Shown here: positions 2,328-5,651 of the stretch, in pieces
How the letters are laid out: each line of letters starts with the position of its first letter
Numbering within the stretch: the stretch's first letter is position 1
NCBI GenBank assembly: GCA_026388315.1
Contig: JAPLKA010000036.1
Coordinates: 1-41,429 of the forward strand
DNA from: Pseudomonadota bacterium
Lineage (GTDB): Bacteria > Desulfobacterota > Syntrophorhabdia > Syntrophorhabdales > Syntrophorhabdaceae
DNA: 41,429 bases
Direction of reading: 5' to 3'
Translations under genes and position numbers: made by a program
Notes under the pieces: generated by a model
What the model was told of the DNA's origin: nothing
Databases searched by the model: none
What the model saw: only the letters and a program-made list of their open reading frames with translations

Positions 2328-2900
2328 ATGAAAGTCATAAAAGACAGAATTCAAACAACAATCCAGAATATGCAAAAAACTGATATCTGGTGACGACACA
2401 ATCAATCGGATAAATGAATCCGCCCGGATTATAATTAATGCTTTAAAATCCGGCAATAAACTCATGATTTGCAGAAACGGTGGAAGTGCTGCCGACGCCT
2501 AGCACATAGCAGGAGAATTTGTTTGTAGGTTTTACAAAAAACAGAGATCCATTGCCAGCTATTGCCATACACAACAGACACGTCCGTTGTGACCTCAATC
2601 TCTAATGACTATTCCTACGACCATATATTCAGCCGTCAGGTTAAGGCGCTTGGAAAAAGCGGTGATGTTCTTCTGGGCATCAGTACAAGCGACAGTTCCA
2701 GGAATGTGTTGGAAGCCGCCTTCAAGACAGCAAGAGAACTTGGAATAAATACGGTGTTCTTAAGCGGAGAGACAGAAAAAGAGATGGCGAAAATAAGCGA
2801 CATTGCAATCAAAGCTCCGTCCTTGGACACACCACGCATCCAGGAGATACACCTGCTTGTTGAGCATATAATTTGCGAAATAGTTGAAAACCAGTTTTGA
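2328..2900 (+). pseudogene. gmhA: decayed phosphoheptose isomerase GmhA
   Basis: GmhA (SIS domain) converts sedoheptulose 7-phosphate to D-glycero-D-manno-heptose 7-phosphate. The family sequence can be followed across the region, but only through several frames. ATG 2328 opens MKVIKDRIQTTIQ and stops at TGA 2391. A second frame carries TINRINESARIIINALKSG and KLMICRNGGSAADA followed by TAG (2500-2502), where the family has CAG in DAQHIAGEF. Another shift follows near 2570. The third frame (open from TTG 2562) holds TTDTSVVTSISNDYSYDHIF to the end. Two conserved glycines are also changed: CRNGGS for CGNGGS, and STSDSS for STSGSS. Several independent lesions make loss of function near certain. 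It is the first gene of the heptose operon. Confidence 0.85.
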
Positions 2901-2915
2901 TAAACCACTGGTTTT
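2887..2915. other. 8-bp hairpin over the gmhA stop
   Basis: AAAACCAG (2887-2894) and CTGGTTTT (2908-2915) form an inverted repeat with a 13-base loop that contains the gmhA stop codon. It sits immediately before the left inverted repeat of the IVS-like element. It may be a transcript hairpin or just part of the insertion boundary. Confidence 0.3.
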
Positions 2916-2920
2916 AGTTT

Positions 2921-3330
2921 TGAGTCATGAATTCTTGGTTTTGAGTTGATGGAAGACAAAAGCATAATAAAGAAAAGAACCTATGAATTTGCTTTGAAAA
3001 TTATTGATCTTTATAAAATACTCATATCAAAAAACGAATATGTGCTCTCAAAACAGCCATTAAAGGCTGGAACAAGCATTGGAGCAAACGTAGAAGAGGC
3101 ACTTGCAGGACAAAGCAGGGCAGATTTTCTTTCAAAAATGTCCATAGCCTCAAAGGAAACGCGAGAAACCAATCATTGGTTACGGCTAATCAGAGATAGC
3201 AAATTTCTTGAAGAACATCATACAAAACCCCTTATTGCCGAGTCATCCGAAATAATAAGAATGCTTACATCTATTGTAAAAACTACTGTTTCAAGTAACT
3301 CAAAACTCAAAACTAAGAATTCATGACTTA
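2921..3330 (+). mobile_element. IVS-like element: four-helix-bundle ORF between 27-bp inverted repeats
   Basis: Bases 2921-2947 and 3304-3330 are inverted repeats, 25 of 27 identical. Both mismatches are left-arm G opposite right-arm T, which would pair as G-U in RNA, so the transcript could fold into an unbroken 27-bp stem. The AACTCAAA motif of the right arm is repeated once more just before it (3297-3310). Between the arms lies one ORF of the 23S rRNA intervening-sequence protein family. This is the architecture of intervening sequences found in bacterial 23S rRNA genes, but here it sits between gmhA and gmhB. I see no clear target-site duplication. Confidence 0.65.
2949..3326 (+). CDS. 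four-helix bundle protein (23S rRNA intervening-sequence protein family)
   Basis: This protein of about 125 residues matches the S23/IVP family (four helix bundle protein, TIGR02436-type). It shows the early segment KRTYEFALKIIDLYKIL, the conserved LKAGTSIGANVEEALAGQSR and the SKMSIASKETRETNHWLRLI helix. Family members form small helical bundles and are encoded inside intervening sequences; their biochemical role is not established. The ATG at 2949 starts right after the left inverted repeat (a TTG at 2946 is also in frame), and the last codons (KTKNS, stop) lie inside the right inverted repeat, so ORF and repeats form one unit. It has no evident link to sugar metabolism. Confidence 0.85.
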   Translation: MEDKSIIKKRTYEFALKIIDLYKILISKNEYVLSKQPLKAGTSIGANVEEALAGQSRADFLSKMSIASKETRETNHWLRLIRDSKFLEEHHTKPLIAESSEIIRMLTSIVKTTVSSNSKLKTKNS

Positions 3331-3338
3331 TTAAATCT

Positions 3339-3899
3339 GTGGCTAAAATTAAAGCTGTTTTCATTGATCGTGATGGCACAATAAATGTTGATAAAAGCTA
3401 TGTTTACAAAATTGAAGATTTTGAACTGCTCCCAGGTTCACTTGAAGCCCTTAAATTACTTACCCGCCACAAAATAAAAATCTATATAGTTACAAATCAA
3501 GCAGGTATCGCAAAAGGGTTATACACAGAAAAGCAGTACCATGTTTTAACAGAATACATGTTGAATTTCTTCAAAAAGGGAGGCATTAAAATTGAAAAGG
3601 TATTGTATTGCCCTCACCATCCTGAAGGCATTGTTCCTGAATATACGAGAAACTGTAATTGTAGAAAGCCTAACACAAAACTTTTTGAAGATGTTATTCA
3701 GCAAAATGAATACCACAAAAGCGAGCTAATTTTGATTGGAGATAAAAATTCTGATATCGAAGCAGGAAATAGATTGGACATTATCACATATTTAGTCCAA
3801 ACTGGGTATGGCAGAGAGCATCAGACCGACATGAAAGCTACTTATATCGAAAAAGATTTATTGAGTGTGGTAAAGCATATCATATCAGCAACTTCATAA
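3339..3899 (+). CDS. gmhB: D-glycero-D-manno-heptose 1,7-bisphosphate phosphatase
   Basis: A 186-residue HAD-superfamily phosphatase that removes the C7 phosphate from heptose 1,7-bisphosphate in the cytoplasm. Visible are the nucleophile motif DRDGT (10-14), TNQAG (52-56), the zinc loop with C91, H93, C106 and C108 (CPHHPEG...CNCRKPN), and GDKNSD (134-139). This zinc loop is diagnostic of GmhB. The GTG start lies 8 bases beyond the right arm of the IVS-like element with no obvious Shine-Dalgarno, so the insertion may have displaced the original ribosome site. hddC follows after 6 bases. Confidence 0.92.
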   Translation: MAKIKAVFIDRDGTINVDKSYVYKIEDFELLPGSLEALKLLTRHKIKIYIVTNQAGIAKGLYTEKQYHVLTEYMLNFFKKGGIKIEKVLYCPHHPEGIVPEYTRNCNCRKPNTKLFEDVIQQNEYHKSELILIGDKNSDIEAGNRLDIITYLVQTGYGREHQTDMKATYIEKDLLSVVKHIISATS

Positions 3900-3905
3900 T
3901 TATCT

Positions 3906-4616
3906 ATGCAAATAGATACAATCATTCTCGCAGGTGGAAAAGGTACAAGACTAAGCGGCATCCTCCCGGATATTCCGAAACCAATGGCTCCGATTAATGG
4001 AATACCCTTTTTGGATATATTATTATCGCAGCTTAACCCTTACCCTTACATAACAAAAGTGATGCTTGCGGTTGGATACAAATCAGACGTAATAATAAAC
4101 AGATATAAAAATTCTGCTGCTTATAATTTTAAAATCCTGTTTTCTGAGGAAAAGGTGTTGTTAGGAACAGGTGGCGCAATAAAAAAGGCGCTATCTTTTG
4201 CAAACACGGACGATGTGCTTGTTTTAAATGGTGATTCATACATAGAAGTTGACATTAACAAATTAATAATTTTTCACAAAGCCAATAAGGCTTCAATAAC
4301 CATTGTTTTAAAAGAGATTAGCGATGCCAACAGATATGGTAGCGTAAAAATAGATGATCAGCTCAGAATACTTTTATTTGAAGAAAAGAACAGTTCAAAT
4401 CATACCGGCCTAATAAATGCTGGAGCTTACCTGATAAAAAAGAATCTTTTTGACAGCATCGACAAAGATCGGGAAATATCTTTTGAACGCGAGATATTAC
4501 CTGATTTAATAAAAGGTAATGCATACGGTTATATAACCAGCGGGATATTTATTGATATTGGCATTCCTGATGACTACAAAAGGGCGCAAGCAGAATTAGC
4601 GAATCACATCGTTTGA
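3906..4616 (+). CDS. hddC: D-glycero-alpha-D-manno-heptose 1-phosphate guanylyltransferase
   Basis: A nucleotidyltransferase of 236 residues that joins GTP and heptose 1-phosphate to give GDP-heptose. The N-terminal GGKGTRL signature (10-16), PKPMAPI (24-30), GTGGA (87-91) and LNGDS (107-111, metal-binding Asp) are all present. On its own the sequence would only say NTP-transferase. The position between gmhB and hddA, with both spacings short, makes HddC the best assignment. No left-handed beta-helix tail is present, in keeping with short HddC/RmlA-like enzymes. Confidence 0.88.
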   Translation: MQIDTIILAGGKGTRLSGILPDIPKPMAPINGIPFLDILLSQLNPYPYITKVMLAVGYKSDVIINRYKNSAAYNFKILFSEEKVLLGTGGAIKKALSFANTDDVLVLNGDSYIEVDINKLIIFHKANKASITIVLKEISDANRYGSVKIDDQLRILLFEEKNSSNHTGLINAGAYLIKKNLFDSIDKDREISFEREILPDLIKGNAYGYITSGIFIDIGIPDDYKRAQAELANHIV

Positions 4617-4640: not shown

Positions 4641-5651
4641 ATGATCATTTCACGTACACCTCACAGAATATCTTTTTTTGGCGGCGGCACAGATTACCCG
4701 TCATGGTATCTTGAGTATGGTGGCAAAGTCTTAGGCGTTGCAATTGATAAATATTCTTATATAACCTGCAGGAAACTCCCCCCGTTTTTTACCCACAAAC
4801 ACAGGATTCTATATTCTAAAATTGAATCGGTTCAGACATTAGACGAGATTCAGCACCCTTCTGTAAGGGAAACTCTTAAATATATGAAAGTTGTTAATGG
4901 TTTGGAAATCCATCATGATGGTGATATTCCAGCTCGTTCTGGTATGGGTTCGAGCTCGGCCTTTACAGTCGGACTGTTAAAAACACTATACGCCCTTGAA
5001 GGTAAGCTTATTACAAAAGAAAATCTTTACAAAGAGGCAATACGTATCGAACAGGACTTGATACACGAAAACGTCGGCTCTCAAGACCAGGTATGGGCGG
5101 CATGTGGTGGTTTGAACACTATCGAATTTCTTCAAAATGGAGAAATTATTGTTGGGCCTATTATCATGAAAGAACCCAGTCTTCAGAGTTTTGAAAATAA
5201 ATTTATGCTTTTTTTTACAGGATTATCAAGATATGCTTCTGATATAGCGAAAGAGGAAATTGAGAACATACCGAAGAAAAAAGATGAATTATTAGAAATG
5301 AGACAATTAGTTGGCGACGCCCAAAAAATCTTAGCCTCTGGTAACGATAATTTTACTGATTTCGGAAAACTTTTGAATGAAACCTGGAAATTGAAAAGAA
5401 AATTATCTGACAAAATTAGTAATGAGGAGATAGATGATATGTATAAAACAGCTTTAGCTAATGGGGCGGTTGGAGGAAAACTCTTAGGAGCCGGCGGTGG
5501 GGGTTTTATGTTGTTTTATGTAGAGCCTGAAAACCAACCAAGGGTAAAAAAGTCATTAAAAAATTACCTGCATGTTCCCTTTAAGTTTGATTTTACAGGT
5601 TCGGAAATCATAGTTTATAAACCCGATTACCAGAATGACAAGAGGAGATAG
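4641..5651 (+). CDS. hddA: D-glycero-alpha-D-manno-heptose 7-phosphate kinase
   Basis: A GHMP-family kinase of 336 residues that phosphorylates heptose 7-phosphate at C1 with alpha configuration, committing the pathway to GDP- rather than ADP-heptose. Motif 1 RTPHRISFFGGGTDYP (5-20), the ATP-binding GMGSSSA (101-107) and motif 3 LGAGGGG (282-288) are intact and ordered as in HddA and related sugar kinases. The start ATG lies 24 bases after hddC and the gene ends 8 bases before the next SDR, with AGGAGATAGGAGG forming the next ribosome site. All four hdd/gmh steps are encoded here, but gmhA is broken. Confidence 0.92.
   Translation: MIISRTPHRISFFGGGTDYPSWYLEYGGKVLGVAIDKYSYITCRKLPPFFTHKHRILYSKIESVQTLDEIQHPSVRETLKYMKVVNGLEIHHDGDIPARSGMGSSSAFTVGLLKTLYALEGKLITKENLYKEAIRIEQDLIHENVGSQDQVWAACGGLNTIEFLQNGEIIVGPIIMKEPSLQSFENKFMLFFTGLSRYASDIAKEEIENIPKKKDELLEMRQLVGDAQKILASGNDNFTDFGKLLNETWKLKRKLSDKISNEEIDDMYKTALANGAVGGKLLGAGGGGFMLFYVEPENQPRVKKSLKNYLHVPFKFDFTGSEIIVYKPDYQNDKRR

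Follow-up and report, generated by a model that had tools for sequence, protein, structure and literature searches.

An intervening sequence (IVS) with an S23p ORF was reportedly described in the 23S rRNA of Leptospira by Ralph and McClelland in 1993, and the origin of rRNA IVSs, their mobility and the function of their ORF have been standing questions since about 1990. The 23S IVS of Coxiella burnetii is ∼430 nt in length, carries an S23p ORF and forms an inverted stem of 28 bp; heptamers lie where RNase III cuts it, and its 5′ part holds tandem heptamers, (GACAGAT)3, of varying copy number; the S23p of Xanthomonas, solved as Xcc0516, is a pentamer (PMC4990558). Heptameric repeats are also described, in the available portions of the relevant reports, as the STRR of cyanobacteria (Nostoc), as GGGAATC in Xanthomonas and as TAACTGA in Beggiatoaceae (PMC4692102, PMC4679880), and the source of such dispersed repeats in cyanobacteria and other bacteria is so far unexplained. 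A published survey counts 18 IVP genes within cas loci, in a passage that makes no mention of the repeats (PMC3936711).

Anatomy of the element in the heptose operon

The window (the whole stretch of DNA analysed, 41,429 bp, to whose positions all element coordinates refer) carries a 125-aa ORF of the IVP/S23 ‘four helix bundle protein’ family on the forward strand at 2949–3326 (PF05635, E 3.6e-24; TIGR02436, E 7.8e-28), flanked by two heptamer arrays. The left (upstream) array occupies 2914–2947 on the forward strand, and the right (downstream) array, an inverted copy of the left, lies on the reverse strand at 3297–3330, where TRF detects AACTCAA in 2.6 copies (3297–3314). Within these arrays, the arm at 2921–2947 pairs with 3304–3330 over 27 nt through 25 Watson–Crick and two G-U pairs (2922/3329 and 2937/3314). 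No second 27-mer pair with at least 22 Watson–Crick matches is present in the entire window at spacings of up to ∼700 nt, and the best pairs in three shuffled windows reach 19–20 matches. In agreement with this pairing, RNA fold prediction of 2900–3345 joins exactly the two arms (−107 kcal/mol, z = −4.4, equalled by 0 of 100 shuffles). The ATG at 2949 is situated one base past the left arm, and the TGA stop (3324–3326) falls within the right arm, whose sequence supplies the C-terminal residues SKLKTKNS. Arm pairing and profile matches thus bear out the original prediction of a four-helix-bundle ORF that is enclosed by 27-bp arms, begins at one arm and stops in the other; the long perfect stem that it foresaw is recovered by folding as 27 nt, but is imperfect at the two G-U pairs. 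The main point was overlooked, namely that the arms are period-7 arrays with a sequence private to each locus. The left arm reads as the heptamers AGTCATG, AATTCTT and GGTTTTG followed by AGTT, and the reverse complement of the right arm as GTCATGA, ATTCTTA, GTTTTGA and GTTTTGA.

The host gene just 5′ of the element is a gmhA copy (2328–2900, forward strand), and the genes 3′ of it, all on the forward strand, are gmhB of the heptose bisphosphate phosphatase family (3339–3899), a nucleotidyltransferase (3906–4616) and a GHMP kinase (4641–5651) of the heptose operon. The order of gmhA, element and gmhB is as originally stated, but the adjoining gmhA copy is disrupted, with frameshifts as well as a TAG codon in frame (AADA*H), and an intact gmhA is present in the same genome on contig C68. 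Further upstream, a terminator-like palindrome without a T run, CCTACTTCGGggctCCGAAGTAGG, lies at 2260–2296 between a glycosyltransferase gene and the gmhA remnant.

The window element possesses both the PF05635/TIGR02436 protein and terminal inverted repeats of the ∼28-bp size (27 nt here) that typify an IVS, yet it resides in a heptose operon and not at helix 25/45 of 23S rRNA. The single 23S rRNA gene of the genome is full-length and free of an insert, and a pattern search allowing up to two mismatches finds the window's arm variant at the window alone; the originally suggested search for these arms elsewhere in the genome and in its 23S rRNA genes thus came out negative. As Coxiella combines a stem, an S23p ORF and heptamers and the genome's own 23S gene is uninserted, the window element shares the anatomy of a 23S IVS but not its rRNA location, and it is, strictly, no 23S IVS; lying between gmhA and gmhB, it belongs to a broad family of which it is an IVS-like member, and the observation is both real and broader than had been thought. 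Tandem 7-nt units in intergenic DNA also give it the defining trait of heptameric short tandem repeats (STRR). It does not have the traits of a DDE, HUH or serine transposon, as the arms vary by locus and profile search of the ORF recognises PF05635 only, with no nuclease or transposase domain; nor is it a diversity-generating retroelement (DGR; reverse transcriptase with TR/VR), and a reverse-transcriptase route was rejected, as the genome is without an RVT_1 match. We consider that the feature is a ∼400–450-bp selfish mobile DNA element, in which an IVP/S23 gene sits between inverted iteron arrays that form its ends, and assign this reading a probability of roughly 0.65.

Arm matching, clade consensus and repeat period

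The genome harbours 14 PF05635 matches, most of which are flanked by inverted arrays with a unit that differs per copy. Across 90 full-length loci from relatives, the inverted flank score has a median of 16.2 within loci versus 8.5 between loci (p 5e-36), with repeat periods of 7, 8 or 9 and with weak or absent arms in ∼20% of the loci in this set. Matching inverted arrays are found at all 13 plasmid loci (13/13) from Cyanobacteriota, Spirochaetota, Bacteroidota, Chloroflexota and Bacillota, and at a plasmid locus of Nostoc sp. C052 the arms match at 39/39 bp. When 84,980 species genomes were scanned with the IVP clade of the window, 80 named loci from many phyla were recovered, 77 of them testable for arms, and here the median arm score is 18 within a locus versus 10 across loci, with far flanks above threshold in 0/65. 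Only 10/77 singly exceed the cross-locus 99th percentile, which is high (26.5) because the clade shares a consensus, and the strength of the evidence in these loci is in the distribution of scores and not in single loci. Two IVP elements (L066, L067) have a different end arrangement, with ∼100-bp direct repeats on both sides that each contain an inverted heptamer hairpin.

The clade of the window has the unit A-R-T-K-N-N-N, with an information content of 5.8 bits against a null maximum of 4.1, and the left-array units AGTCATG, AATTCTT and GGTTTTG conform to it at nearly all positions. When arms were placed by the conserved positions alone before the three variable positions were compared, the latter agree between the arms of one locus at 0.75, as opposed to 0.41 for permuted partners (maximum 0.506 in 2000 permutations). 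The array period of 7, 8 or 9 likewise tracks the IVP protein tree, with 8 changes versus 13.5 on shuffling and 0/200 shuffles as low, in a tree of 143 IVPs that is built from few columns and in which near-copies add to the clustering of periods. For the mixed clades of relatives, the idea of a tightly specific sequence was considered and dropped, the consensus there being barely above the null (2.68 versus a maximum of 2.64 bits).

The original prediction took the arms to form a stem that RNase III cleaves in the operon mRNA, and the corresponding explanation is that the arms are kept for an RNase III-cut stem that frees the host mRNA of the insert, as in 23S rRNA. The window transcript does fold into such a 27-bp stem, RNase III cuts the 28-bp stem of the Coxiella IVS at a site where heptamers lie (PMC4990558), and most elements are oriented in sense with their operons. 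Selection for a sense-strand stem should however favour G-U pairs, and arm mismatches at 151 loci comprise 158 that are G-U-compatible versus 199 that are A-C. No G-U excess is seen; the mismatches thus do not support the view that arm matching stems from RNA pairing, or that the arms are kept for RNase III cleavage. A stem requirement also leaves the tandem period-7/8/9 units and the clade consensus unexplained, and two copies in cas loci are antisense to the operon. This explanation is consequently unlikely, although it survives better than the other alternatives, and a DNA-level role of the arrays as iterons at the element ends fits better.

Discrete copies, empty sites and solitary arrays

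Near-identical copies share 82–95% identity over ∼380–445 bp, i.e. the ORF plus arrays, in mostly unrelated contexts. The shared DNA, confined to ORF and arrays, spans 445 bp in L018/L024, 440 bp in L007/L098, which pairs the window's own genome with another genus, and 407 bp at 94.6% identity in L119/L006. Some flanking DNA is common to the pair as well in L118/L113, L024/L073 and L019/L070, and L001/L071 and L106/L122 are vertical orthologues. The dN/dS of the IVP ORF is 0.05–0.43, hence the protein is under purifying selection.

Filled and empty sites were compared among relatives. At one locus (L046), gmhA directly adjoins gmhB with no IVP, and an IVP is present within ∼1.5 kb of gmhB at 0 of the other 19 gmhB loci examined; this supplies the operon without insertion that had been sought, but no target duplication was found at this or the other filled/empty site comparisons. 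In a congener (L045, G002:C2), AGTTTTG-type arrays of the window's unit lie at 58–150, ∼200 bp 5′ of gmhB, with no IVP in the 325 bp before the contig end. The cytosine methyltransferase gene is intact in Nostoc UHCC 0302, whereas N6 and ATCC 53789 have an element in place of ∼310 bp of it (L219, L235 versus L232), and plasmid A of Nostoc C052 has an element in place of ∼230 bp found on sister plasmids. These replaced lengths are comparisons between relatives and not recorded events, and the element ends they imply are uncertain because the empty-site relatives are only ∼75–95% identical and host DNA may have gone after insertion; transposition as such was not observed. In two Nostoc, cas2 and cas1 are adjacent, and on plasmids of Nostoc TCL26-01 and Anabaena cylindrica PCC 7122 an element lies between them in antisense (L215, L216). 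Elements also occur within defence operons of the DISARM/BREX, helicase-methylase and hsdS-hsdR types (L221, L224, L226). At the left junction of the methyltransferase insertion, the host sequence CAATTCG equals the array unit, which is possibly microhomology. This junction prompted the notion of a target-derived unit, which was discarded: near-identical IVPs keep their unit in different contexts, and the unit therefore travels with the element, with microhomology at insertion a possibility. A strong operon or strand preference was likewise discarded (sense strand in 57/66 triples versus 32/43 neighbouring genes, p = 0.13).

That the ORF and its inverted arms form one unit able to enter protein-coding operons, as originally proposed, is upheld by its recurrence in many such operons and by relatives that have gmhA–gmhB and, in Nostoc, cas2-cas1, the methyltransferase gene and a further plasmid ORF without it; the same gene order with the ORF kept and the arms absent was not seen in relatives. 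If the IVP were instead an ordinary operon member serving the host in regulation, surface sugar or defence loci, and the arrays its regulatory operator, this would accord with purifying selection, with the presence of elements in restriction, cas and DISARM/BREX operons and with the 18 cas-locus genes of PMC3936711, but host operons are highly dissimilar, orthologous operons are without the IVP, a methyltransferase gene is interrupted by an element and near-identical copies lie in unrelated contexts, which renders this the least probable reading.

Arrays also occur away from IVP genes. In 20-kb samples of genomes, solitary period-7/8/9 arrays number 63 in 933 kb from 12 IVP-bearing genomes and 1 in 534 kb from seven IVP-free genomes, where some stretches of the window's genome were chosen for IVPs or arrays, the other IVP genomes were sampled mostly from IVP-carrying contigs and several IVP-free genomes come from different families within the order or phylum. 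The window's genome contributes 34 in 441 kb (0 when shuffled) and the remaining IVP-bearing genomes 29 in 491 kb, and at the genome level the association with IVP gives p 0.009 by rank test and a Spearman coefficient of 0.68. Solitary AGTTTTG arrays without an IVP occur in the window's genome, where a pattern search gave 50 matches, some overlapping, for which a reversed-pattern control is uninformative with tandem arrays. The solitary array L136:3201–3243 (contig C110) is common to the congener G002 and absent in G001.

Such arrays could be independent short tandem repeats, as cyanobacterial STRR, with IVP genes as passengers that insert into array hairpins or are tolerated there. The many arrays without an IVP, the existence of ORF-less hairpins (e.g. 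L150:9047) and the solitary array common to a congener all speak for this. However, solitary arrays are mostly without an inverted partner, whereas IVP-flanking arrays have one; arrays are nearly absent from IVP-free genomes; and the arrays, whose consensus and period go with the clade of the IVP, travel with the ORF. We regard independent repeats as improbable, and slightly more so than an RNA-level role.

Proposed mechanism and comparison with known systems

The structure model of the IVP (pLDDT 92.5) has its best fold match in 2rld, the solved structure of BT_0352, followed by 2gsc and the Avd structure 4dwl, and the five chains of 2rld suggest a pentamer. For a mobile element bounded by iterons, the following scheme may be proposed. 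The arrays would be the element ends, with a unit usually of 7 bp and sometimes of 8 or 9, in which a few positions are typical of the IVP clade and the rest are private to the locus and kept alike in both arms. The IVP, a relative of Avd from DGRs and putatively a ring of five four-helix-bundle subunits, most likely binds these iterons and, together with host enzymes, may promote insertion, expansion or homogenisation of arrays. The element would settle for the most part between operon genes or at their ends, usually reading in the same direction, and could replace some host DNA in doing so; 23S rRNA IVSs may be specialised members of the family. The recurrence in many phyla of the gene-plus-arrays unit, whose short gene has so far been familiar chiefly from rRNA gene inserts, points to a widespread, largely unrecognised mobile element. 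The full extension of this scheme is held tentatively, at somewhat less than even odds: IVPs with private iteron arrays may constitute a cross-phylum mobile class without a recognised transposase, in which the IVP ring acts in trans to make or spread STRRs, and 23S IVSs would be one branch.

A report of a link between IVP genes and heptamer arrays was not found in the literature searched, whose coverage is incomplete and does not prove priority. Tying IVSs and heptamer repeats to a single gene family whose ends can be measured makes the questions attached to each testable, now that candidates for array binding can be named together with their substrates, the units particular to each clade and naturally occurring filled/empty sites. 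In the annotation of MAGs, such units would then no longer be labelled ordinary operon genes.

MITE and REP-RAYT elements are small units with inverted ends, whose ORF-less relatives are dispersed in genomes that carry the gene. The IVP unit resembles them in its small size, inverted ends and ORF-less relatives in genomes carrying the gene, but has no transposase domain, and its ends vary by copy with no single fixed TIR. By structure comparison, the protein shares the four-helix-bundle fold of Avd of diversity-generating retroelements (4DWL, 8UB7; PMC10053308), whereas reverse transcriptase, TR and VR are all absent here. As in the STRR, Xanthomonas and Beggiatoaceae heptamers, period-7 tandem arrays are dispersed in intergenic DNA, and the Xanthomonas repeats also form convergent inverted pairs; in contrast to those repeats, which are described without an IVP in the available portions of the reports (PMC4692102, PMC4679880), inverted pairs here flank IVP genes and solitary arrays co-occur with IVP-bearing genomes. 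The closest likeness in anatomy is to the 23S rRNA IVS, as in both an IVP/S23 ORF lies inside terminal inverted repeats of ∼28 bp and the total length is ∼430 nt. Unlike the 23S IVS, the window element is inserted in a protein-coding operon, many different copies exist per genome and each of the two arms is an array of heptamers that share a clade consensus; the ORF family here is under purifying selection, in contrast to the decay described for the Coxiella ORF (PMC4990558).
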